This document shows, in pieces, positions 16,178 to 23,602 of a stretch of DNA of 64,000 nt; position 1 is the stretch's first letter, and each line of letters begins with the position of its first letter. The notes beneath the pieces are model-generated. The model worked only from the letters and a program-made list of their open reading frames with translations. It was not told where the DNA came from and searched no databases. A program made the translations under genes and the position numbers. The DNA is from Bdellovibrio bacteriovorus str. Tiberius. GTDB lineage: Bacteria; Bdellovibrionota; Bdellovibrionia; Bdellovibrionales; Bdellovibrionaceae. Location of the stretch: positions 3,720,001 through 3,784,000 of the forward strand of contig NC_019567.1 of NCBI RefSeq assembly GCF_000317895.1. Direction: 5' to 3'.

Positions 16178-17464
16178 TTGAAAGCTTTAGGTCGTCATAT
16201 TTTGGTTGAGTTCAGTGGATGTAACGCAGAAGTTCTGAACGACGTTTCCATCATCGAAAGAAGCATGGTCGAAGCGGCGCAGATTGCTGGTGCGACAGTC
16301 ATCAACTCCACTTTCCACCACTTCTCCCCATGGGGCGTAAGCGGTGTGGTTGTTATTCAGGAAAGCCATTTGGCTATTCATACTTGGCCTGAATACCGTT
16401 ATGCGGCCGTGGATCTGTTCACCTGCGGTGATTCAGTGGATCCTTGGGTTTCTTTCGAGCACCTGAAAAAAGCTTTCCAGGCGAACTATTCGGCGATTGA
16501 GATGAACCGTGGTTCTTTGCACGTCATCCAAAAATCCGACTTCCAGCCTAAAATCATGCGTGAAAAGCCGTCTTTCGATCTTTCCAAAGGTCACCAGATC
16601 GACCGCAACGTATGGTTCACTGACAAAGACGAAAACCAGGCGCTATCTTTACGCTATACGGGCGATGTTTTGTTTGATGAAACAAATCAGTTCCAGCGCG
16701 TGCGCGTTTTGGATTCTTATTCTCACGGCAAATTCCTGGCGATCAACAACATGGTTATGTGCACCGAGCGTGATGAATACCATTATCACGAAATGATCAC
16801 TCACCCGGTGATGCAGACTCATGGCAGTGCGAAAAACGTACTGGTTATCGGTGGCGGCGATGGCGGCACCATCCGTGAATTGTTCAAATATAACGTGGAC
16901 AATGTGACCATGGTTGAAATCGACGAGGCAGTAGTTCGTGCTTCCAAAGAGCACCTTCCAAAAATCGCCAGCGAATTCAACAACCCGAAATTGAATCTTA
17001 TTATCGGTGACGGCATCCAGTTTGTTAAAGACGCGCCTGCGAACTCTTACGACGTGATCATCGTGGACGGATCTGATCCTGTAGGTCCGGCAAAAGGCCT
17101 TTTCACTGCGGAATTCTATAACAACTGTAAAAACGCATTGAAAGACGGCGGCTTGGTGATCACTCAAGGTGAATCCCCAATGTTCCATGAAGGCACTTTC
17201 GTTGAATTGAACCATTGCCTAAAAGGCATCTTCGGCAAACAAAGTGTTCACACCATGCTGTTCCACGCAACGACTTACCCGTCTGGCATGTGGAGCTTGC
17301 AGGTTGCAGTCAAAGGATCCAAACATCCGGCGAAGGACTTCAATAAAGACCAAGCGGCCAAGTTCGCTCAGGACAAAGGTCTTAAGTACTACAATGAAGA
17401 CCTGCACACTGCGGCCTTCAGCCTTCCTACTTTCGTCAAAACAATGCTTGGCGATAATGCTTAA
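16178..17464 (+). CDS. Fused S-adenosylmethionine decarboxylase-spermidine synthase
   Basis: 428 residues. Makes decarboxylated AdoMet and uses it to convert putrescine to spermidine in one polypeptide. The start is TTG at 16178, 7 bp after GGAGGA, giving [12 protein letters not shown], which aligns with the usual N-terminus of SpeH. Residues 1-~120 are a class 1b AdoMet decarboxylase: '[23 protein letters not shown]' and the self-cleavage site Glu-Ser in '[11 protein letters not shown]', whose Ser becomes the pyruvoyl cofactor; '[12 protein letters not shown]' follows. After a linker, residues ~145-428 are spermidine synthase with '[14 protein letters not shown]', 'VEIDEAVV' and '[12 protein letters not shown]'. 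Such fusions are known in some bacteria. The sodB gene follows 65 bp downstream. Confidence 0.93.
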
Positions 17465-17495
17465 TTGATAGACCGCCTCCTGTTTTCATTATAGT
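17465..17495 (+). promoter_or_regulatory. Candidate sodB promoter
   Basis: TTGATA at 17465-17470 and TATAGT at 17490-17495, spaced 19 bp (18 if the -10 is read as TTATAG). The start of transcription would be near 17502, inside the loop of the inverted repeat at 17474-17527. The spacing is longer than ideal, so this is tentative. Confidence 0.45.
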
Positions 17496-17527
17496 TTCAT
17501 TTAGAAAACTAAACAAAACAGGAGGCG
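17474..17527 (+). repeat. Perfect 13-bp inverted repeat enclosing the sodB -10 box and covering its RBS
   Basis: CGCCTCCTGTTTT (17474-17486) and AAAACAGGAGGCG (17515-17527) are exact reverse complements, 28 nt apart. The right arm contains the GGAGG ribosome binding site of sodB, whose ATG is at 17530. In RNA read through from the spermidine gene, the arms would pair and hide the site; RNA started at the internal promoter would lack the left arm. Confidence 0.85.
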
Positions 17528-17529
17528 TA

Positions 17530-18150
17530 ATGTTCAAACTTCCAAATCTTCCCTACGCAAAAACCGGTATTGCTCCCTTGTTCAACGAAGAACAAATGAC
17601 TTACCACTACGACAAGCACCACAAAGCTTACATCGACAATCTGAACAAGTTCATGGAAACAGATGCATCCCTGAAAGGTAAATCCCTTGAAGAGATCACT
17701 TTGACTTCCACGGGTGGCATCTTCAACAACGCCGCTCAGGCCTGGAACCACACATTCTTCTGGTTCGGCATGAGCCCTGCTGGTCAAGGTGGCCAACCAT
17801 CTGCAGAACTCACTGCTGCGATCACTCGCGATTTCGGTTCTATGGATGAATTGAAAGCGAAGTTCGTTGACGGTGGTGTAAAAACCTTCGGTTCCGGCTG
17901 GATCTGGTTGTGCATGGACGCTGCTGGCAAATTGTCTTTGGTTTCCACTTCCAACGCAGCGGTTCCTTTCACTAACAACGGCCCGACTCCATTGTTGGTT
18001 GCTGACGTTTGGGAACACGCTTACTACGTTGATTACAGAAATCTTCGTGCAAAGTATCTTGAGACTTTCTGGGCGCAGGTAAACTGGAACTTCGTTTCCG
18101 AAAACTTCGCTTCCAAAAAAGTCCGCGACCTGACAAAGTCCATGACGTAA
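17530..18150 (+). CDS. sodB: Iron superoxide dismutase
   Basis: 206 residues. Converts superoxide to oxygen and hydrogen peroxide. The metal ligands are visible: His26 in 'MTYHYDKHHKAYID', His74 in 'AWNHTFFW', and Asp and His in 'DVWEHAYYVDY'. The Gln in 'FNNAAQAWNH' and the 'FFWFGMSP' segment are typical of the iron type. There is no signal peptide, so it is cytoplasmic. The ribosome site is GGAGG 4-8 bp before ATG and forms one arm of a perfect inverted repeat. A strong terminator follows at once. Confidence 0.93.
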   Translation: MFKLPNLPYAKTGIAPLFNEEQMTYHYDKHHKAYIDNLNKFMETDASLKGKSLEEITLTSTGGIFNNAAQAWNHTFFWFGMSPAGQGGQPSAELTAAITRDFGSMDELKAKFVDGGVKTFGSGWIWLCMDAAGKLSLVSTSNAAVPFTNNGPTPLLVADVWEHAYYVDYRNLRAKYLETFWAQVNWNFVSENFASKKVRDLTKSMT

Positions 18151-18170
18151 CAAAAAAGTACCTGAAAAAT

Positions 18171-18209
18171 AAAAAGGAACTGCCTTCATCAGCAGTTCCT
18201 TTTTTTTTT
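18171..18209 (+). terminator. Bidirectional terminator between sodB and the converging barrel gene
   Basis: Stem AAGGAACTGC / GCAGTTCCTT with an 8-nt loop, followed by an unbroken T run on the plus strand (18201-18209). On the minus strand the stem is followed by CCTTTTTATTTTTC, so it can end transcription in both directions. Confidence 0.92.
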
Positions 18210-18981
18210 AGAGTTCGAAGAAGGTTGTGGAAAGAAGGAACAGGGTGTCTTGTGTGTCTGGGGTGTAGTACACGCCGACGGAGGGGCGCGAGAACATTTC
18301 TTTCGGACGAAGCTGGGACCAGGCCACACCCACACCGGTGTTCATCTGCTCGTAAGGGGAAAGACCCGCTTCTCGCAGGTGACCATAAGCCAAAGTCACC
18401 CATTCACGATCCTTGATCTGATACTGAATATCCAGACCGTACTCAGCTTCACACTTCAAAGAATAGACAAAGACCAAACCGTTGGTGGAATCAATGTGCC
18501 CACACACCTGGGTCACGAACGGCGACATCGTCACGTTTTCATTCCAGTCGGGACGATAGTTAAAACCCAACTGGGTTGAACGCAAAACCAAATCCGGTCT
18601 TTCGACAACCTTGCCCTCTTTTTTCACTTCAGATCTAAAACGTGTTTCGGTGAATGAAGCAGCCCAGTCAAAGTTTTCCCCACGATAGAAATTTCCCTTG
18701 AGGGTGTAGTTGCGGCTGCCGGAAGCTGTTGCATAGAACATCGGAACCGTTCCGATCTCCAGACGAGGCAACACACCCATACTTAAAGCATTCGTCAGCA
18801 TGTGGGAATTGACATTGGCGCCGCCAGCACGCTGATAGCCGAACTGCCACTGCGGCAAAGTGCGAGCAGAAGTACTGACCACCGGATTGAACACCACCCG
18901 TTTTTCAGGAATGACGTCGTCAAACCCCGCCAGGGATTGAACACTGAAAGCCAAAATGATGAGTGAAATCAACGCACGCAT
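18208..18981 (-). CDS. Predicted outer-membrane beta-barrel protein
   Basis: 257 residues with signal peptide MRALISLIILAFSVQSLAG. The mature region alternates in strand-like fashion ('ALSMGVLPRLEIGTVPMFYATA', 'DLVLRSTQLGFNYRP', 'GLDIQYQIKDREWVTLAYGHLREAGLS') and ends in 'LFLLSTTFFEL'. Two Cys (TQVCGH, SLKCEAEY) may form a loop disulfide. No named family is recognised. It converges with sodB and shares its bidirectional terminator. Confidence 0.7.
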   Translation of the reverse strand: MRALISLIILAFSVQSLAGFDDVIPEKRVVFNPVVSTSARTLPQWQFGYQRAGGANVNSHMLTNALSMGVLPRLEIGTVPMFYATASGSRNYTLKGNFYRGENFDWAASFTETRFRSEVKKEGKVVERPDLVLRSTQLGFNYRPDWNENVTMSPFVTQVCGHIDSTNGLVFVYSLKCEAEYGLDIQYQIKDREWVTLAYGHLREAGLSPYEQMNTGVGVAWSQLRPKEMFSRPSVGVYYTPDTQDTLFLLSTTFFEL

Positions 18982-19010
18982 ACCCGCACGCGATACAAGA
19001 TAAGTGCCAA

Positions 19011-19036
19011 TACAAAGGGGCCCGAAAGCCCCTCAT
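19011..19036 (-). terminator. Probable terminator after the flavodoxin-fold gene
   Basis: On the minus strand AGGGGC and GCCCCT form a 6-bp stem with a loop containing TTTC, followed by TTTGTATT. It lies about 70 bp after the stop of the 19105 gene and before the 18981 start. The T-tract is weak. Confidence 0.45.
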
Positions 19037-19104
19037 TTCCCTCTGAGCGCCGCCATCCCCCGCTGACCGGGTAAATAGTTCACGGCGACCAAAAGCTGAT
19101 CAGA

Positions 19105-19674
19105 TTATTTCAACCATTTGCGACGGGGGTCTTTTTTGTCGACGGGCCACGTGGTCCACGTCACCTGCAGATCACAGGCTTTCAGGAAATTTTCCACAAT
19201 CAGCTCGGCGTCCTCTTTTTGCCAGAAGTCCTTGGCGTGGGAGCTCGGGTTTTTCAGGGCGATATCCGAGACCAGTGAATAGACCATGCCGCTCATCGGA
19301 GGAATCAAAAAGCCCATAGTGGACAGAGCCCCCTGAAGTCGGGACAGCACCCCTTTACCACCCACCGAATGCATCAGCACAAAGACCGCCGCAGGTTTTC
19401 CCATAAAGGCGGCCGAGCCCTCAAGTTCCGTCATATCTTCCATCAACTTCTGCAGCGGGCTTCCCCATGAATCCCAGTAAGTTCCCGTCACAAAGAACAG
19501 GCCTGAAGCAGATTCAAGTTTCTTGCGCAGTACCGGCCCGTAAGAGGTCTTTGCCAAATGCACAACTTCCACTTCGGCTTGCTTACCAAATATTTTCACC
19601 AGCCCCTTGATCCACTGAGCACAGTTGCCTTTGTCCCCCGTGGGACTGCCATTTAAGATCAAAACTTTTTTCAT
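19105..19674 (-). CDS. NAD(P)H-dependent FMN reductase / flavodoxin-fold protein
   Basis: 189 residues from the ATG at 19674 (MKKVLILNGSPTGDKGN); a GGAAG site precedes it. The N-terminal 'LNGSPTGDKGNCAQW' loop is the phosphate-binding loop for FMN, and 'FFVTGTYWDSWGSPLQKLMEDM' fits the second flavin-binding loop of the WrbA/NADPH-dependent FMN reductase superfamily. Residues 'MGKPAAVFVLMHSVGGKGVLSRLQGALSTMGF' complete the fold. Probably a soluble flavoenzyme; the electron acceptor is unknown. The start is divergent from the 19762 gene. Confidence 0.8.
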   Translation of the reverse strand: MKKVLILNGSPTGDKGNCAQWIKGLVKIFGKQAEVEVVHLAKTSYGPVLRKKLESASGLFFVTGTYWDSWGSPLQKLMEDMTELEGSAAFMGKPAAVFVLMHSVGGKGVLSRLQGALSTMGFLIPPMSGMVYSLVSDIALKNPSSHAKDFWQKEDAELIVENFLKACDLQVTWTTWPVDKKDPRRKWLK

Positions 19675-19761
19675 GCTTCCACTTCCCTGTTTCACTCGAA
19701 AGCAGGATTTCTTTGCCCCGTGCCCATGGTGGTGTTACCTCTGTGGCGCGAGGGGCTTTTC

Positions 19762-20337
19762 ATGGTTCAATTCCTGCTTTCCACATTATTGTCTGTTTCC
19801 GCGGCTCAGGCCAAGGACATCCGTCCACTTTTTGATGCTTTGGCGGATTCCGGCGCCCGCTATGAAATTGTCGGTACCGTTTGCGAACAGGTGGCCAAGC
19901 TGAATCTGGAACAGGACTATCCAGCCCCGGACTATTATGTGGTGACCGGCATCTATTATGGAAACAAGAAACACGTCATCGGCGAACTGGATGTCGTGGT
20001 GTTCAAGTCCAGCGACAACAAGGCCGTACTGGTGGGCGAAGTGAAATGCTGGACAAATCTTTCCAGTGCCCGCTCCAAAGCCATGGATCAGCGCCAAAGA
20101 TTCAAGGCCGCTTTGTCAAACGGCGGTGGCCTGATCATGGGCTGCACTTCTCAACAAACGGGATGCAGCTTCAGTAAAAAGAACTTCAAGGCTGTGGAAA
20201 AGTTTGTGTCCATCTCTCAGGATGGTGGCGAGAAGCGCGGTTTTGACATGACTCTGGGTTATTCTCTGGAAGAAATGATGGTCCTGCGTGAACAGCTGAT
20301 GCAATGCCAGCAACGCGGTGAATGCGAACGCCCATAA
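19762..20337 (+). CDS. Exported protein with a PD-(D/E)XK nuclease-like motif
   Basis: 191 residues from the ATG at 19762 with a signal peptide (MVQFLLSTLLSVSAAQAKD). A second ATG upstream would spoil the signal peptide. The core reads: Glu in 'VGTVCEQVAKLNLEQDY', then 'VIGELDVVVFKSSDNKAVLVGEVKCW'. Glu, Asp, about 15 residues, then Glu-x-Lys on a beta strand is the arrangement of the PD-(D/E)XK phosphodiesterase fold (compare YraN and RecB-like nucleases). Three Cys follow (GCTSQQTGCSF; CQQRGEC). If right, this is a periplasmic or secreted nuclease, perhaps for prey DNA. No known family is recognised and activity is not shown. Confidence 0.6.
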   Translation: MVQFLLSTLLSVSAAQAKDIRPLFDALADSGARYEIVGTVCEQVAKLNLEQDYPAPDYYVVTGIYYGNKKHVIGELDVVVFKSSDNKAVLVGEVKCWTNLSSARSKAMDQRQRFKAALSNGGGLIMGCTSQQTGCSFSKKNFKAVEKFVSISQDGGEKRGFDMTLGYSLEEMMVLREQLMQCQQRGECERP

Positions 20338-20398
20338 ACATTTGTCTGTACACTGAGGTCCGCCGAGGGCCACAATGAAGGCAAATGAAAGGACGTTC

Positions 20399-21274
20399 AT
20401 GAAACACCTGATTCTTCTGCTTTCACTGCTGCCTTGCTCCGCCTTTGCGGTCACCGAAACCCTGCAAACTCTGGCACCCAAAGCGGGTCAGAATGAATTC
20501 AAAGGTGGCATCGCCTACTCTCACGTGTCGGCCGAGGCTGATCTGGGCGGATCCGCCACTTCCAATCAGTTTGTTGTTCCAGTTTCTTATTTCTACGGCA
20601 TCACCACGCATCATGCGGTGGGTGTTGAAACTTACTATCTTAAAAATGATTCCAACTTTTCCAAAGCCGGCCTTTCCGGCAGCGGTGAAACTCAAGACTT
20701 CGGCAATATCGACATCACCTATAAAGGAAATCTGGATACCGAAAGCGGAACAGTTTACCTGGAAGCCGGCGTTTCATTCCCCAGCGAAAAGTATGAGTTC
20801 AATTCCAACGATGCCCAATTCAGCGCCAGCACCGGACAGACAACTGTGACTTTGGCAGCGGGGTACGTGCAAAAACTTGTCGACTTCACTCTGGGCGGTA
20901 TCGCCGCTTATGACATTGCCATGGAAGGGGATGCCGATATTGACGTGGGTGTTTTTTCTGACTCGGGCAAAGTCAAAGGTGGCAGCCAGGTGCGATTCTC
21001 GTTCTTTGGTGAAGTTGAAGGGGAAAACCATCCCAACTTCAGCCTGACTTATGCCCGCACGTACAGCCGCAGCTTCAGCTCGGACACTGTTTCCGGCACG
21101 ATCGACGAGGACCTTGAAATGTTCTATGCAAATTTCAGCGCGCGCATGCCGGTGGCTGAAAGACTGGAATTCATCCCGACCGCAGGACTTGCCACGGTGA
21201 TGAATCAAAGCGATCGCAATCTGGAAAAATATAACATGTTCACAGCAGCAGCCCAGCTGCGCTACCTGTTCTAA
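20399..21274 (+). CDS. Predicted outer-membrane beta-barrel protein
   Basis: 291 residues from the ATG at 20399 (MKHLILLLSLLPCSAFA signal peptide), after an AAAGGA site. The frame is open upstream but the earlier Met would place charged residues in front of the signal. Strand-like segments ('NQFVVPVSYFYGITTHHAVGVETYYLK', 'GTVYLEAGVSFP', 'QTTVTLAAGYVQKL', 'LEMFYANFSARMP') and a terminal 'AQLRYLF' indicate a barrel. Family and role are unknown. The spacing of 61 bp after the PD-(D/E)XK-like gene permits an operon. Confidence 0.7.
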   Translation: MKHLILLLSLLPCSAFAVTETLQTLAPKAGQNEFKGGIAYSHVSAEADLGGSATSNQFVVPVSYFYGITTHHAVGVETYYLKNDSNFSKAGLSGSGETQDFGNIDITYKGNLDTESGTVYLEAGVSFPSEKYEFNSNDAQFSASTGQTTVTLAAGYVQKLVDFTLGGIAAYDIAMEGDADIDVGVFSDSGKVKGGSQVRFSFFGEVEGENHPNFSLTYARTYSRSFSSDTVSGTIDEDLEMFYANFSARMPVAERLEFIPTAGLATVMNQSDRNLEKYNMFTAAAQLRYLF

Positions 21275-21295
21275 CAGGCATTCCTAAAAAAATGA

Positions 21296-21318
21296 CAGGC
21301 GTCTGAATCAGACGCCTG
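21296..21318 (+). terminator. Perfect 11-bp hairpin after the barrel gene
   Basis: CAGGCGTCTGA (21296-21306) and TCAGACGCCTG (21308-21318) form a near-continuous palindrome 22 bp after the 20399 gene's stop. No T-tract follows on the plus strand (cacatggagg), so termination may be factor-dependent. Confidence 0.5.
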
Positions 21319-21368
21319 CACATGGAGGGATGGGAAAAGGACCGCACATTATGTTGTGTCTACTTTCA

Positions 21369-21926
21369 TCAAGAGACCTCCTTTAGTTTGTCTTCGAGGA
21401 TCTCTGTCCCCTTGTTCAAAGGGGACAGAACTTCAAATTGAAAACCTACAGTCATGGGAACCCGTCTTGGCGGCTCTTTGATTTCAATGGCGTTAACGAC
21501 GTCATGAACTCCAGAAAGCTCCCAGGCAGCACCAACTGCTGTCGCTTTCAGACGTGGACGGAATACCTCCCCTTCCAGTCTGACGACGGCGTCTTTGACG
21601 ACCACCTCAATATGCTCTCCGCCGATTTTGATCATGTCTTCGATCTGAGCCTGCAGGATATTCTGGATTTCTTCATCCGAGCGGTAATAGTCCGCCGGCA
21701 CAACGATGCGATCTTCGATCGTCCAAACACCCTCCGTTTCAGAGATGACCTCCAAAGCGGCATTTTTTTTATAACAAGTGTCGACGAATCCACTGACCAC
21801 AATCACGCCGTCACGAATGACGATATCCAGATCAGCCAAGCTCACTCTTTTGTCCCATTTAATGCGGTCCCGGATCTTGCGACCCAGTTCGCCGTCACTT
21901 TGGTTTTTCAGAAGATGAGTTTTCAT
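21369..21926 (-). CDS. BON-domain protein
   Basis: 185 residues from the ATG at 21926, after an AAGGAG site. Two BON-type domains can be seen: residues ~12-77 ('IRDRIKWDKRVSLADLDIVIRDGVIVVSGFVDTCYKKNAALEVI...VWTIEDRIVV') and ~90-145 ('IEDMIKIGGEHIEVVVKDAVVRLEGEVFRP...LSGVHDVVNAIEI'). BON domains occur in OsmY and are linked with membrane or phospholipid contact under osmotic stress. There is no signal peptide, so unlike OsmY it seems cytoplasmic. It follows the HPF-like gene by 40 bp on the same strand, suggesting a stress operon. Confidence 0.8.
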   Translation of the reverse strand: MKTHLLKNQSDGELGRKIRDRIKWDKRVSLADLDIVIRDGVIVVSGFVDTCYKKNAALEVISETEGVWTIEDRIVVPADYYRSDEEIQNILQAQIEDMIKIGGEHIEVVVKDAVVRLEGEVFRPRLKATAVGAAWELSGVHDVVNAIEIKEPPRRVPMTVGFQFEVLSPLNKGTEILEDKLKEVS

Positions 21927-21966
21927 AAAGCTGCTCCTTGCCTTTGACGGGTCTTTGTCTTTTGGG

Positions 21967-22344
21967 TTATGCCACCCCTTCGAGTGGCATAGGTTGGAAT
22001 TCCAGCATAGGGTCATTACGACGGTGCTGGGATTTGCGAGAGGAACGTTTACTTAGAACGCCCTTCAAAGCAGATACCGTTTTAGCTACACATCGCTTGA
22101 AGTTCTCGTCTCGTTTGACCACTTTGATCACGGTTTTCGAGCGAGATGGCTTCAAGATGACCTCACACACATAACTGGGTTTGCGAGTCTGCGATCGATG
22201 TCGATCGGTTTCCACACGCACTGTGAGGTGAGCACCACTGTCATACTTGAAGAATTCTCCAACAGCCCCTTCGACTGTTTCCAACAAGTAAGATTCGAGA
22301 TTTTCAGTTTTAGTGATGTCTCTGTAGTAGATGTCTGTTTGCAT
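21967..22344 (-). CDS. Ribosome hibernation-promoting factor / RaiA family protein
   Basis: 125 residues from the ATG at 22344, preceded by AAGGAGGT. 'MQTDIYYRDITKTENLESYLLETVEGAVGEFFKY', 'AHLTVRVETDRH', 'PSYVCEVILKP' and 'DENFKRCVAKTVSALKGVLSK' follow the beta-alpha-beta-beta-beta-alpha layout of HPF/RaiA proteins, which bind the 30S decoding site in resting cells. It is longer than short HPF because of a basic tail (SKRSSRKSQHRR) but lacks the dimerisation domain of long HPF. Organised with the BON gene downstream; divergent from the LysR gene. Confidence 0.8.
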   Translation of the reverse strand: MQTDIYYRDITKTENLESYLLETVEGAVGEFFKYDSGAHLTVRVETDRHRSQTRKPSYVCEVILKPSRSKTVIKVVKRDENFKRCVAKTVSALKGVLSKRSSRKSQHRRNDPMLEFQPMPLEGVA

Positions 22345-22390
22345 ATCTACCTCCTTCTTGAGTCTATTATCGTTCATATCGACAATTTCG

Positions 22391-22438
22391 TTAAATATAT
22401 AATTTAGAAGACATAATTAGGTTAAAATTATATATTAA
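22391..22438. promoter_or_regulatory. AT-rich inverted repeat between the HPF-like and LysR genes
   Basis: TTAAATATATAATTT (22391-22405) is mirrored by AAAATTATATATTAA (22424-22438); 11 bp (ATATATAATTT) match exactly as reverse complements across an 18-nt centre. It lies in the 204-bp region between divergent genes and could hold both promoters or an operator for the LysR protein. Confidence 0.55.
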
Positions 22439-22548
22439 GAGGGTCCTGTTTAGAAATTCGCTGTAAAGGTCATCACTTACAGAGTCGCAGCGAAAGACCA
22501 GTTCCAAAAGGGCTCCAAAAAAGCCATGTTATTAGGAGGTCTAGTATC

Positions 22549-23469
22549 ATGTTTAACTACAATCACCTGTACTATTTTTATGTGACCGCCCGGCTGGGTG
22601 GAGTCAGTAACGCTGCCAAATACCTGCATATCAGTCAGCCGTCGCTGAGCTCTCAGATCAAAGTGCTTGAATCCAGCATCGATCAGAAGCTCTTTGAAAA
22701 GCGCGGAAGAAATCTTCATCTGACTCCGGAAGGTGAACGCACGTTTGCCTACTGCAAAAAGATGTTTGATGTTGCGGCGGACTTTGCTGAATCACTGAAA
22801 AGCCCGACAGAAAAACAAAGTCAGCGCATCCGCATCGGAGTCAGCGATCAGGTGGAACGTCCTTTCATCGCCGACTTGCTGGCACCGTTGATTCGCGAAC
22901 AAAAGCGTGGAGTGGAAAAGATCTTCTTCGTCAGTTCAGCCCCTTCCGATGTTCTGGTTACGCAACTGCGAAGCCGTGAAATTGATTTATTGCTGACGAA
23001 CAAGCCGATCTATGCCGACGACGTGACCGAACTTGCCACCGCCGAAATGCCGGTGAATCTGATGGTGTCCACGAAGAACCTGAAGGAAAGAAAGATCCGC
23101 ACTTCACGAAACACCTCGGCCCTGGAATTTCTGAATGCCGTTCCATGGGGCCTGATTATTCCGTCTTACAAGATGAAGCTGCGCCATGAAACGGACTTGT
23201 TCTTTCAGGAAATCCGCGCGCGCAAAAAAGTGGTCTTTGAATCCGACATCATGTCTGTCGTAGGACGAGCCATCGTTGATGGCGCCGGTGTGGGCTTCCT
23301 GCCAGTGCCTTACGTGATGGACGAAGTCCAATCCGGCATCCTGACCCTGCTGGGCCCCAAAGCCGGCTACTGGAAACACACGTTGTATTTGTTAGGAAGA
23401 AAAGACGAAAAAGAAGACGAAACAATTCAAGATCTAAGAAAAACCGTCAAACGCCTGGAGAAAATTTAG
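22549..23469 (+). CDS. LysR-family transcriptional regulator (NhaR-like)
   Basis: 306 residues. The start follows TTAGGAGG. The N-terminal winged helix is clear: 'MFNYNHLYYFYVTARLGGVSNAAKYLHISQPSLSSQIKVLE', a form closest to NhaR within the LysR family. The rest is the periplasmic-binding-protein-like effector domain ('IRIGVSDQVERPFIADLLAPLI', 'DLLLTNKP', 'GAGVGFLPVPYV'). NhaR responds to sodium in enterobacteria, but the effector here is unknown. It is divergent from the HPF-BON pair, the most likely local targets along with its own gene. Confidence 0.88.
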   Translation: MFNYNHLYYFYVTARLGGVSNAAKYLHISQPSLSSQIKVLESSIDQKLFEKRGRNLHLTPEGERTFAYCKKMFDVAADFAESLKSPTEKQSQRIRIGVSDQVERPFIADLLAPLIREQKRGVEKIFFVSSAPSDVLVTQLRSREIDLLLTNKPIYADDVTELATAEMPVNLMVSTKNLKERKIRTSRNTSALEFLNAVPWGLIIPSYKMKLRHETDLFFQEIRARKKVVFESDIMSVVGRAIVDGAGVGFLPVPYVMDEVQSGILTLLGPKAGYWKHTLYLLGRKDEKEDETIQDLRKTVKRLEKI

Positions 23470-23495
23470 CAGATCGAATCAAAACAGGGTCGATC

Positions 23496-23602
23496 AAAAA
23501 GGTCCAAATGCAAGGCGGAGGGTTTTTTCCGAAACGGAGGCGTGCTCCAAGCACGTCGAAGAGAAGGAAAAGGCCCGACAACGCAGTCAGTTGGGCCTTT
23601 TT
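23496..23602. repeat. Structured intergenic element of 107 bp with nested inverted repeats and a terminator
   Basis: The outer arms AAAAAGGTCCAA (23496-23507) and TTGGGCCTTTTT (23591-23602) are inverted with one wobble-type difference. Inside are 'GCAAGGCGGAGGG', a hairpin GCGTGCT..AGCACGT (23540-23556) and 'CCCGACAACGCAG'. The right end doubles as a terminator (AAAAGGCCC 23568-23576 with GGGCCTTTT 23593-23601, then TT) for the LysR gene. Confidence 0.6.

Follow-up and report, generated by a model that had tools for sequence, protein, structure and literature searches.

In Bdellovibrio bacteriovorus HD100, a published nuclease table lists Bd0934, Bd1244 and Bd3507 as Endonuclease_1 proteins and Bd1431 and Bd1934 as SNase proteins (PMC3593177, in the part cited here); together with Bd1501, these proteins have a signal peptide, and their presumed targets are nucleic acids beyond the predator's cytoplasm (PMC3593177 and PMC7925074, in the sections cited), two traits that they would share with the protein described here. 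According to the same sections of the two papers, none of the annotated secreted DNases examined to date is indispensable (PMC7925074, PMC3593177). When bd0934 and bd3507 were both deleted, nuclease activity was even higher, and the authors of that study allow for an “unidentified extracellular nuclease(s)” (PMC7925074). The breakdown of prey DNA by Bdellovibrio is unsettled, and a multi-copy family of predicted exported nucleases makes the missing activity directly testable.

The fold with which the protein was compared is that of the PD-(D/E)XK superfamily, whose core is defined as a four-stranded mixed sheet with a helix on each flank (PMC1913061, in the passage cited). With this superfamily our protein, P0001, shares an αβββαβ core, a Glu on the first core helix (αA), an Asp on strand β2, an E-x-K on strand β3 and a Gln and an Arg on the second core helix (αB); its family differs from the superfamily in being predicted to be exported, in having conserved cysteines and in comprising a circularly permuted form (form B, as opposed to form A, in which the core precedes the module and to which P0001 belongs). 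Other points of comparison are HamA (Pfam HamA, DUF1837), a D-E-x-K nuclease as P0001 is predicted to be and an effector held by the helicase HamB (PMC12278908, in the part cited); YraN/UPF0102, a small PD-(D/E)XK protein like P0001, with weak matches in few members of the family; and DUF6602 (PF20247), the most frequent weak Pfam match.

The window, i.e., the whole stretch of 64,000 nucleotides that was analysed, encodes P0001 on its + strand, from an ATG at position 19762 to a stop codon ending at 20337 (191 aa); we delimited this coding sequence of an exported PD-(D/E)XK protein of form A (19762..20337) from the ORF, its relatives and alignment A1. A1 comprises the window protein and 57 relatives that are 32–61% identical to it (58 rows). 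An earlier note, made from the letters alone, had described this ORF as a signal-peptide protein with a YraN/RecB-style PD-(D/E)XK core, pointing to the peptides CEQVAKLNL and VIGELDVVVFKSSDNKAVLVGEVKCW; the ORF is where it was said to be, and the two peptides lie at residues 41–49 and 72–97, respectively.

Twenty residues are invariant across the 58 rows, namely G38, C41, E42, Y66, G74, E75, L76, D77, E93, V94, K95 and C96, then K106, Q110, R113, G155, G160, C182, Q183 and C188. We then counted distinct form A rows, window protein included, after trimming sparse alignment columns; rows identical across their last 170 residues had been removed before the count of 103, and a seemingly broken gene of genome G073 and a fragment (G200:C108) were left out. 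E42, G74, E75, D77, E93, K95 and Q110 are kept in 79/79 of these rows, as are C41, beside the αA Glu, and C96, beside the putative catalytic Lys; L76 is found in 78/79 and R113 in 77/79. On the + strand of the window, αA spans residues 37–52 (19870..19917) and carries C41 and the predicted active-site Glu E42, as seen in A1 and in the model described below. The GELD motif follows at residues 74–77 (19981..19992; A1, model), with D77 as the predicted metal-binding Asp, and E93-V-K95-C96 (20038..20049; A1, model) provides the predicted catalytic E-x-K and a conserved Cys. Helix αB, residues 100–119 (20059..20118; model), bears Q110 and R113 in a QRxRF motif, both invariant in A1. The superfamily is marked by an acidic residue on β2 and a (D/E)-x-K on β3, and both are found here in every one of the 79 rows (D77, E93 and K95); the pattern proposed in the earlier note, with its preceding helical Glu, is thus recovered along the family, E42 included, and so is the conservation of the acidic and Lys residues among homologues that the note had named as a check, in the 58 rows as in the 79. 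Such conservation is far above chance.

The structural check, a prediction with an αβββαβ core, had likewise been set beforehand, and the AlphaFold model computed from A1 (mean pLDDT 92.8, pTM 0.87) has this core in terms of the order of its elements, which is what was compared, rather than the arrangement of the sheet: helix 37–52, strands 58–67, 72–82 and 88–95, helix 100–119, and strands 125–128 and 147–152. Among the best 50 of 274 Foldseek matches in the PDB, the restriction enzymes PfoI and BstEII come first (E 4.1e-3 each), and most of the entries that follow are nucleases (NucC, Card1 and Can2 among them), interspersed with a small number of unrelated proteins; no PDB match of the model reaches E <=0.001. 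VIA-align ranks first a Hachiman structure (8zue_A, Z 7.4, rmsd 4.2, 158 aligned) and second AF1548 (1y88, Z 7.3, rmsd 3.6, 96 aligned), values below 8 and thus in a range that, according to the tool, may reflect merely a common arrangement. Taken together, the listed structure matches have moderate scores and are mostly PD-(D/E)XK nucleases as judged from their titles. The viral structure library gave two matches below 0.001, both to uncharacterised proteins, and the sequence search of solved structures returned chance matches only (best E 1 for the single protein, 0.51 and 0.7 for two profiles).

No convincing model for P0001 was found in the four libraries searched (Pfam, NCBIfam, PHROGs and PADLOC), those of PHROGs and NCBIfam giving no match at all, so that the statement that no family name fits it holds for these libraries. 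Weak Pfam matches are nevertheless found among the 58 members, with DUF6602 in 33 (best E 0.0011), HamA in 11, NERD in 10, DUF1853 in 9 and HSDR_N_2 in 6, all of which we take to be PD-(D/E)XK families. One has to bear in mind that such matches are mixed with chance ones, as 25 Pfam families are listed for the 58 members and the best single NCBIfam E-value, 0.00017, is a chance match of one member to DeoR. P0001 itself does not match DUF6602 in the Pfam search. The comparison with YraN proved a fair hint rather than an assignment: NCBIfam YraN models match at most 6/58 members (best E 0.0083) and Pfam UPF0102 matches 1/58 (best E 0.0018), fewer than DUF6602, HamA or NERD, and P0001, having no match to these models in Pfam or NCBIfam, stays below the curated YraN/UPF0102 cut-offs. 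To our knowledge, YraN also has no signal peptide, no Cys tail and no counterpart of the C-terminal module of P0001. The links to HamA are of the same kind, the 11 members matching weakly in Pfam (E <=1, best 0.0047) and P0001 matching in PADLOC at E 0.0044; in Pfam, P0001 has no HamA match up to E 10 and thus none at the cut-off of that family. Unlike HamA, P0001 has a signal peptide, and no helicase-size ORF was seen in the flanks read (about 1.5 kb each way for the three paralogues): HamB is longer than 437 aa, the length of the longest ORF overlapping positions 17000–23500 of the window. What supports assigning P0001 to the PD-(D/E)XK superfamily is that its fold class, the weak matches in Pfam and the active-site residues all concur.

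The export signal was predicted computationally for the whole family. The signal peptide of P0001 would span residues 1–17 (19762..19812, +), ending in SAAQA before KD, and the model is less confident over residues 1–20. Our test was a crude one, asking for a hydrophobic stretch and small residues at -3/-1, with the start codons of relatives picked nearest to the start of the window protein in the alignment. It was passed by 58/58 rows of A1 and by 24/24 rows of A2, the alignment of form B, as against 1/58 and 2/24 in a control where the hydrophobic stretch was started at residue 41, in keeping with the export claimed in the earlier note. A Lys or Arg is found within the first six residues in 52/58 rows of A1 and 18/24 rows of A2; P0001, which starts with MVQFLL, has none there. 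The note had also spoken of Cys pairs. Four conserved Cys are indeed present in form A (C41, C96, C182 and C188), all invariant in A1; their pairing is what we would deduce. The last two belong to a C182-Q-x4-C188 tail (20305..20325, +), a possible disulphide, invariant in A1 and with each Cys kept in 78/79 rows. One of the 79 rows has just two Cys in total, which fits a joint loss of this C-terminal pair. Form B lacks both the Cys by the αA Glu and that by the catalytic Lys, and their being lost together fits a C41–C96 pair in form A. Form B has an invariant Cys pair of its own, C35/C173, in its 24 rows.

Fold, active-site conservation, export signal, paralogy and a permutation at the level of sequence were thus computed for the family. 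On this basis, P0001 is probably a Sec-exported, metal-dependent PD-(D/E)XK phosphodiesterase, likely stabilised by disulphides and acting outside the cytoplasm, where its most likely substrate would be nucleic acid of the prey or extracellular DNA, and a member of an undescribed family with two permuted forms. We infer its catalysis, its disulphides and prey as its target along the following lines. P0001 would leave the cytoplasm of the predator via its Sec signal peptide; once exported, it would probably be stabilised by its conserved Cys in the form of disulphides; E42, D77, E93 and K95 would make up a metal-dependent active site, with the helix of Q110 and R113 aiding substrate binding; and DNA or RNA would be cut outside the predator cytoplasm, the most likely target being the nucleic acid of the prey inside the bdelloplast, or extracellular DNA. 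The parts of this reading do not carry the same weight: the family very probably has nuclease activity, while for prey nucleic acid as its main target the chances look about even. The breakdown of prey DNA by such an exported protein, as suggested in the earlier note, is plausible.

The published nuclease table does not seem to list the family. Genome G005, which we take to be B. bacteriovorus HD100, holds copies at 1214197, 1489164 and 2070045, apart from its three Endonuclease_1 and two SNase genes. If these five nuclease genes are taken as the named ones in order, interpolation places the copies near Bd1282, Bd1573 and Bd2158; these tags differ from Bd1501, which is therefore probably another gene too. 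When expression data for HD100 were sought with such tags, which are approximate, none of those tried turned up in the main text of PMC2797640 and PMC12546842, and a literature search based on five tags found no paper. We regard the family as a candidate for the missing nuclease activity of HD100.

The first search found matches in 30/59 related genomes; when 368 genomes of the phylum were searched with a profile, 74 had matches, of which 48 have form A and 26 were reached solely via the distant form B. The 48 include G073, where the form A gene is seemingly broken (G073:C9:60942-61193), two overlapping pieces being matched separately and one of them having an internal stop. Within the genus, form A is present in 22/24 genomes, with one to four copies each, and in neither G003 nor G012. 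The latter genome (3.0 Mb) has four Endonuclease_1 genes, as against three in G000 and G005, and one kind of exported nuclease may possibly have been replaced there by another. The genome to which the window belongs holds four paralogues, the window copy being accompanied by three others, 37–45% identical to it and at unrelated loci. A single peptide pattern searched among the contigs of named genomes gave 22 loci, all with titles of groups taken as Bdellovibrionota, the only phylum in which the family has been seen so far.

Two close relatives, G005 and G023, have the flanks of the window gene and only 71 and 62 aligned bases, respectively, of its start (L167 2061-2131 in G005, L166 1416-1477 in G023); no remnant was found at the locus in G018. 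With such remnants left between the flanks, the window copy must have been deleted in both genomes, and close relatives can do without it; the different right-hand ends of the two remnants point to what are apparently two separate deletions. If the close relatives devoid of this copy are predators, it is not required for predation.

Around the window gene, the order is an FMN-reductase-like gene (19105..19695, −), the nuclease gene, a gene for a predicted outer-membrane protein (20375..21274, +) and a BON-domain-like gene (21369..22016, −), these three names being readings of the sequence. The FMN-reductase-like and BON-like genes are also near the orthologues in G020, G002 and G019, and the outer-membrane-protein-like gene was not found beside the orthologues in L006–L008. 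In one metagenome-assembled genome, the orthologous nuclease gene is separated from the FMN-reductase-like gene by another gene, whose small product is predicted to be exported (L007 2200-2658, −; L064 2404-2862, +).

A Sec signal alone leads to the periplasm, and P0001 could also be a nuclease that stays there and protects or feeds its own cell, acting on incoming phage or environmental DNA at the envelope, rather than an enzyme of predation. The presence/absence pattern and the turnover of paralogues do fit an accessory gene of defence or scavenging, and two defence nucleases, HamA (in Pfam, PADLOC and structure) and NucC, are among the closest matches. We nonetheless hold this explanation to be unlikely, as no immunity, delivery or defence gene was recognised in the flanks read for the window gene and its paralogues, no match to the family was found in phage and plasmid records at E 0.01, and HamA works with its helicase partner HamB, no export of HamA being described in the part of PMC12278908 that we cite. 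A search of viral contigs with A1 gave 7 pattern matches, none of them to a relative.

That the fold has been kept for binding or for a structural role, with the nuclease activity gone, is a more doubtful idea: the superfamily does include proteins that have become inactive, the nuclease-like domain of RecC being one (PMC1185551, in the part cited), but all four residues predicted to be catalytic are kept in 79/79 rows of form A and 24/24 of form B, and an inactive relative would not need them. Exported nuclease domains are common toxin warheads, and the earlier note had mentioned a toxin domain as an option; a toxin against prey or competitors nevertheless looks slightly more improbable still, since the model is that of a stand-alone domain with no further region for delivery and neither immunity nor delivery genes were recognised in the flanks, and several paralogues lie at unrelated loci.

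The exported phosphodiesterase that we favour comes with a second family, form B, also predicted to be exported and found in 29/368 genomes (A2 search, >=170 bits), that of the window not being one of them. It was first seen as distant matches of 38–70 bits with the core motifs of form A, and about 100 residues stand ahead of its core with little behind it. A2 gathers 24 form B proteins, the genes of five of the 29 genomes (G228, G233, G234, G235 and G260) having been left out; in all 24 rows the αA Glu, GE-D, E-x-K, Gln and Arg are kept. As far as the alignments tell, form B is a circular permutant of form A, in which the piece that follows the second core helix is N-terminal instead of C-terminal. 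In P0001 this piece is the C-terminal module, residues 125–184 (20134..20313, +; delimited from the model and the A–B comparison), with strands 125–128 and 147–152 and helix 169–184.

The homologous segments occur in opposite order in the two families, with a core match at E 1.9e-23 and a module match at E 3.8e-9. For the module, the profile–profile comparison has a probability of 96 and a score of 44.1, when the maximum in 200 column shuffles is 19.8 (none of the 200 as good) and reversed or unrelated segments score at most 13.6. At E <=1 and among 1,472 ORFs, additional copies of these genes not being counted, a module HMM built solely from form A matches 15/24 form B proteins and no other ORF, and one built solely from form B matches 66/79 form A proteins and a single ORF besides. 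Tightening the threshold to E 0.01 leaves 5/24 and 24/79, respectively. Once form B is rotated so as to begin with its core, the A–B alignment scores 183.3 over 155 columns instead of 148.7 over 100; when the module columns were shuffled, no score in 100 trials was higher than 158.9. The order is core–module in 79/79 form A and module–core in 24/24 form B proteins, a census whose profile was built from both families and which is thus not an independent count. The model of form B (pLDDT 92.9) has strands 21–24 and 49–55, helix 71–82, core helix 123–135, strands and helix 185–207, an order that is a rotation of that of form A, with an extra helix, 89–97, where the ends of form A would join. It is thus highly improbable that the permutation is an alignment artefact, with unrelated modules and the core alone in common: the single-protein match is weak, few module HMM matches persist at E 0.01, the module borders were set after the alignments had been seen and the models were compared by element order rather than superposed, yet the profile match, the one-family HMMs, the gain upon rotation and the shared order of the main elements all speak against it.

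In a tree of the core only, a branch with 100/100 support separates form B from the other rows, the tree having few columns and no known root; one permutation is therefore sufficient, and form B is probably the derived form, since form A has the canonical order. The form B model has nothing better than E 0.22 in Foldseek against the PDB and at most Z 4.2 in VIA, where Cdn1, Card1 and Can2 come first; as sequential aligners are expected to perform poorly on a permutant, we do not read these weak matches as a new fold. In Pfam and NCBIfam, no PD-(D/E)XK family is common to two members of form B, and one member matches RE_ApaLI at E 0.012; the fold class of form B rests on its core motifs and on its match to form A.

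A PD-(D/E)XK fold that was permuted in nature, and whose two forms are both exported and keep their active sites, would be a clean case for studying how a nuclease fold tolerates moved termini. A review of the superfamily published in 2012 by Steczkiewicz and colleagues may mention permutations, and we therefore do not claim priority. Among the matches listed in our literature search, we found no paper on circular permutation in this superfamily; the stem “permut” is absent from the main text of the superfamily papers PMC1913061, PMC551604 and PMC1189080, and a text search of PMC3874165 finds permutation for S subunits only. We hold with middling confidence a broader picture of a previously undescribed, exported and disulphide-stabilised family of Bdellovibrionota, permuted once with its termini moved between the second core helix and the next strand, both forms being exported with a full active site and occurring together in at least two genomes, and the canonical form, in up to four copies in Bdellovibrio, supplying part of the unidentified activity that degrades prey or extracellular nucleic acids.

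The idea that the two forms exclude each other beyond what lineage accounts for was rejected. With form A in 48 and form B in 29 of the 368 genomes, both would be expected together by chance in about 4 and are seen in 2, G348 and G354. These are draft genomes of 88–89% completeness, in which the presence of both forms may come from contamination. The loci concerned are L114 and L160 in G348 and L124 and L156 in G354, which would be useful to test a division of work between the two forms.
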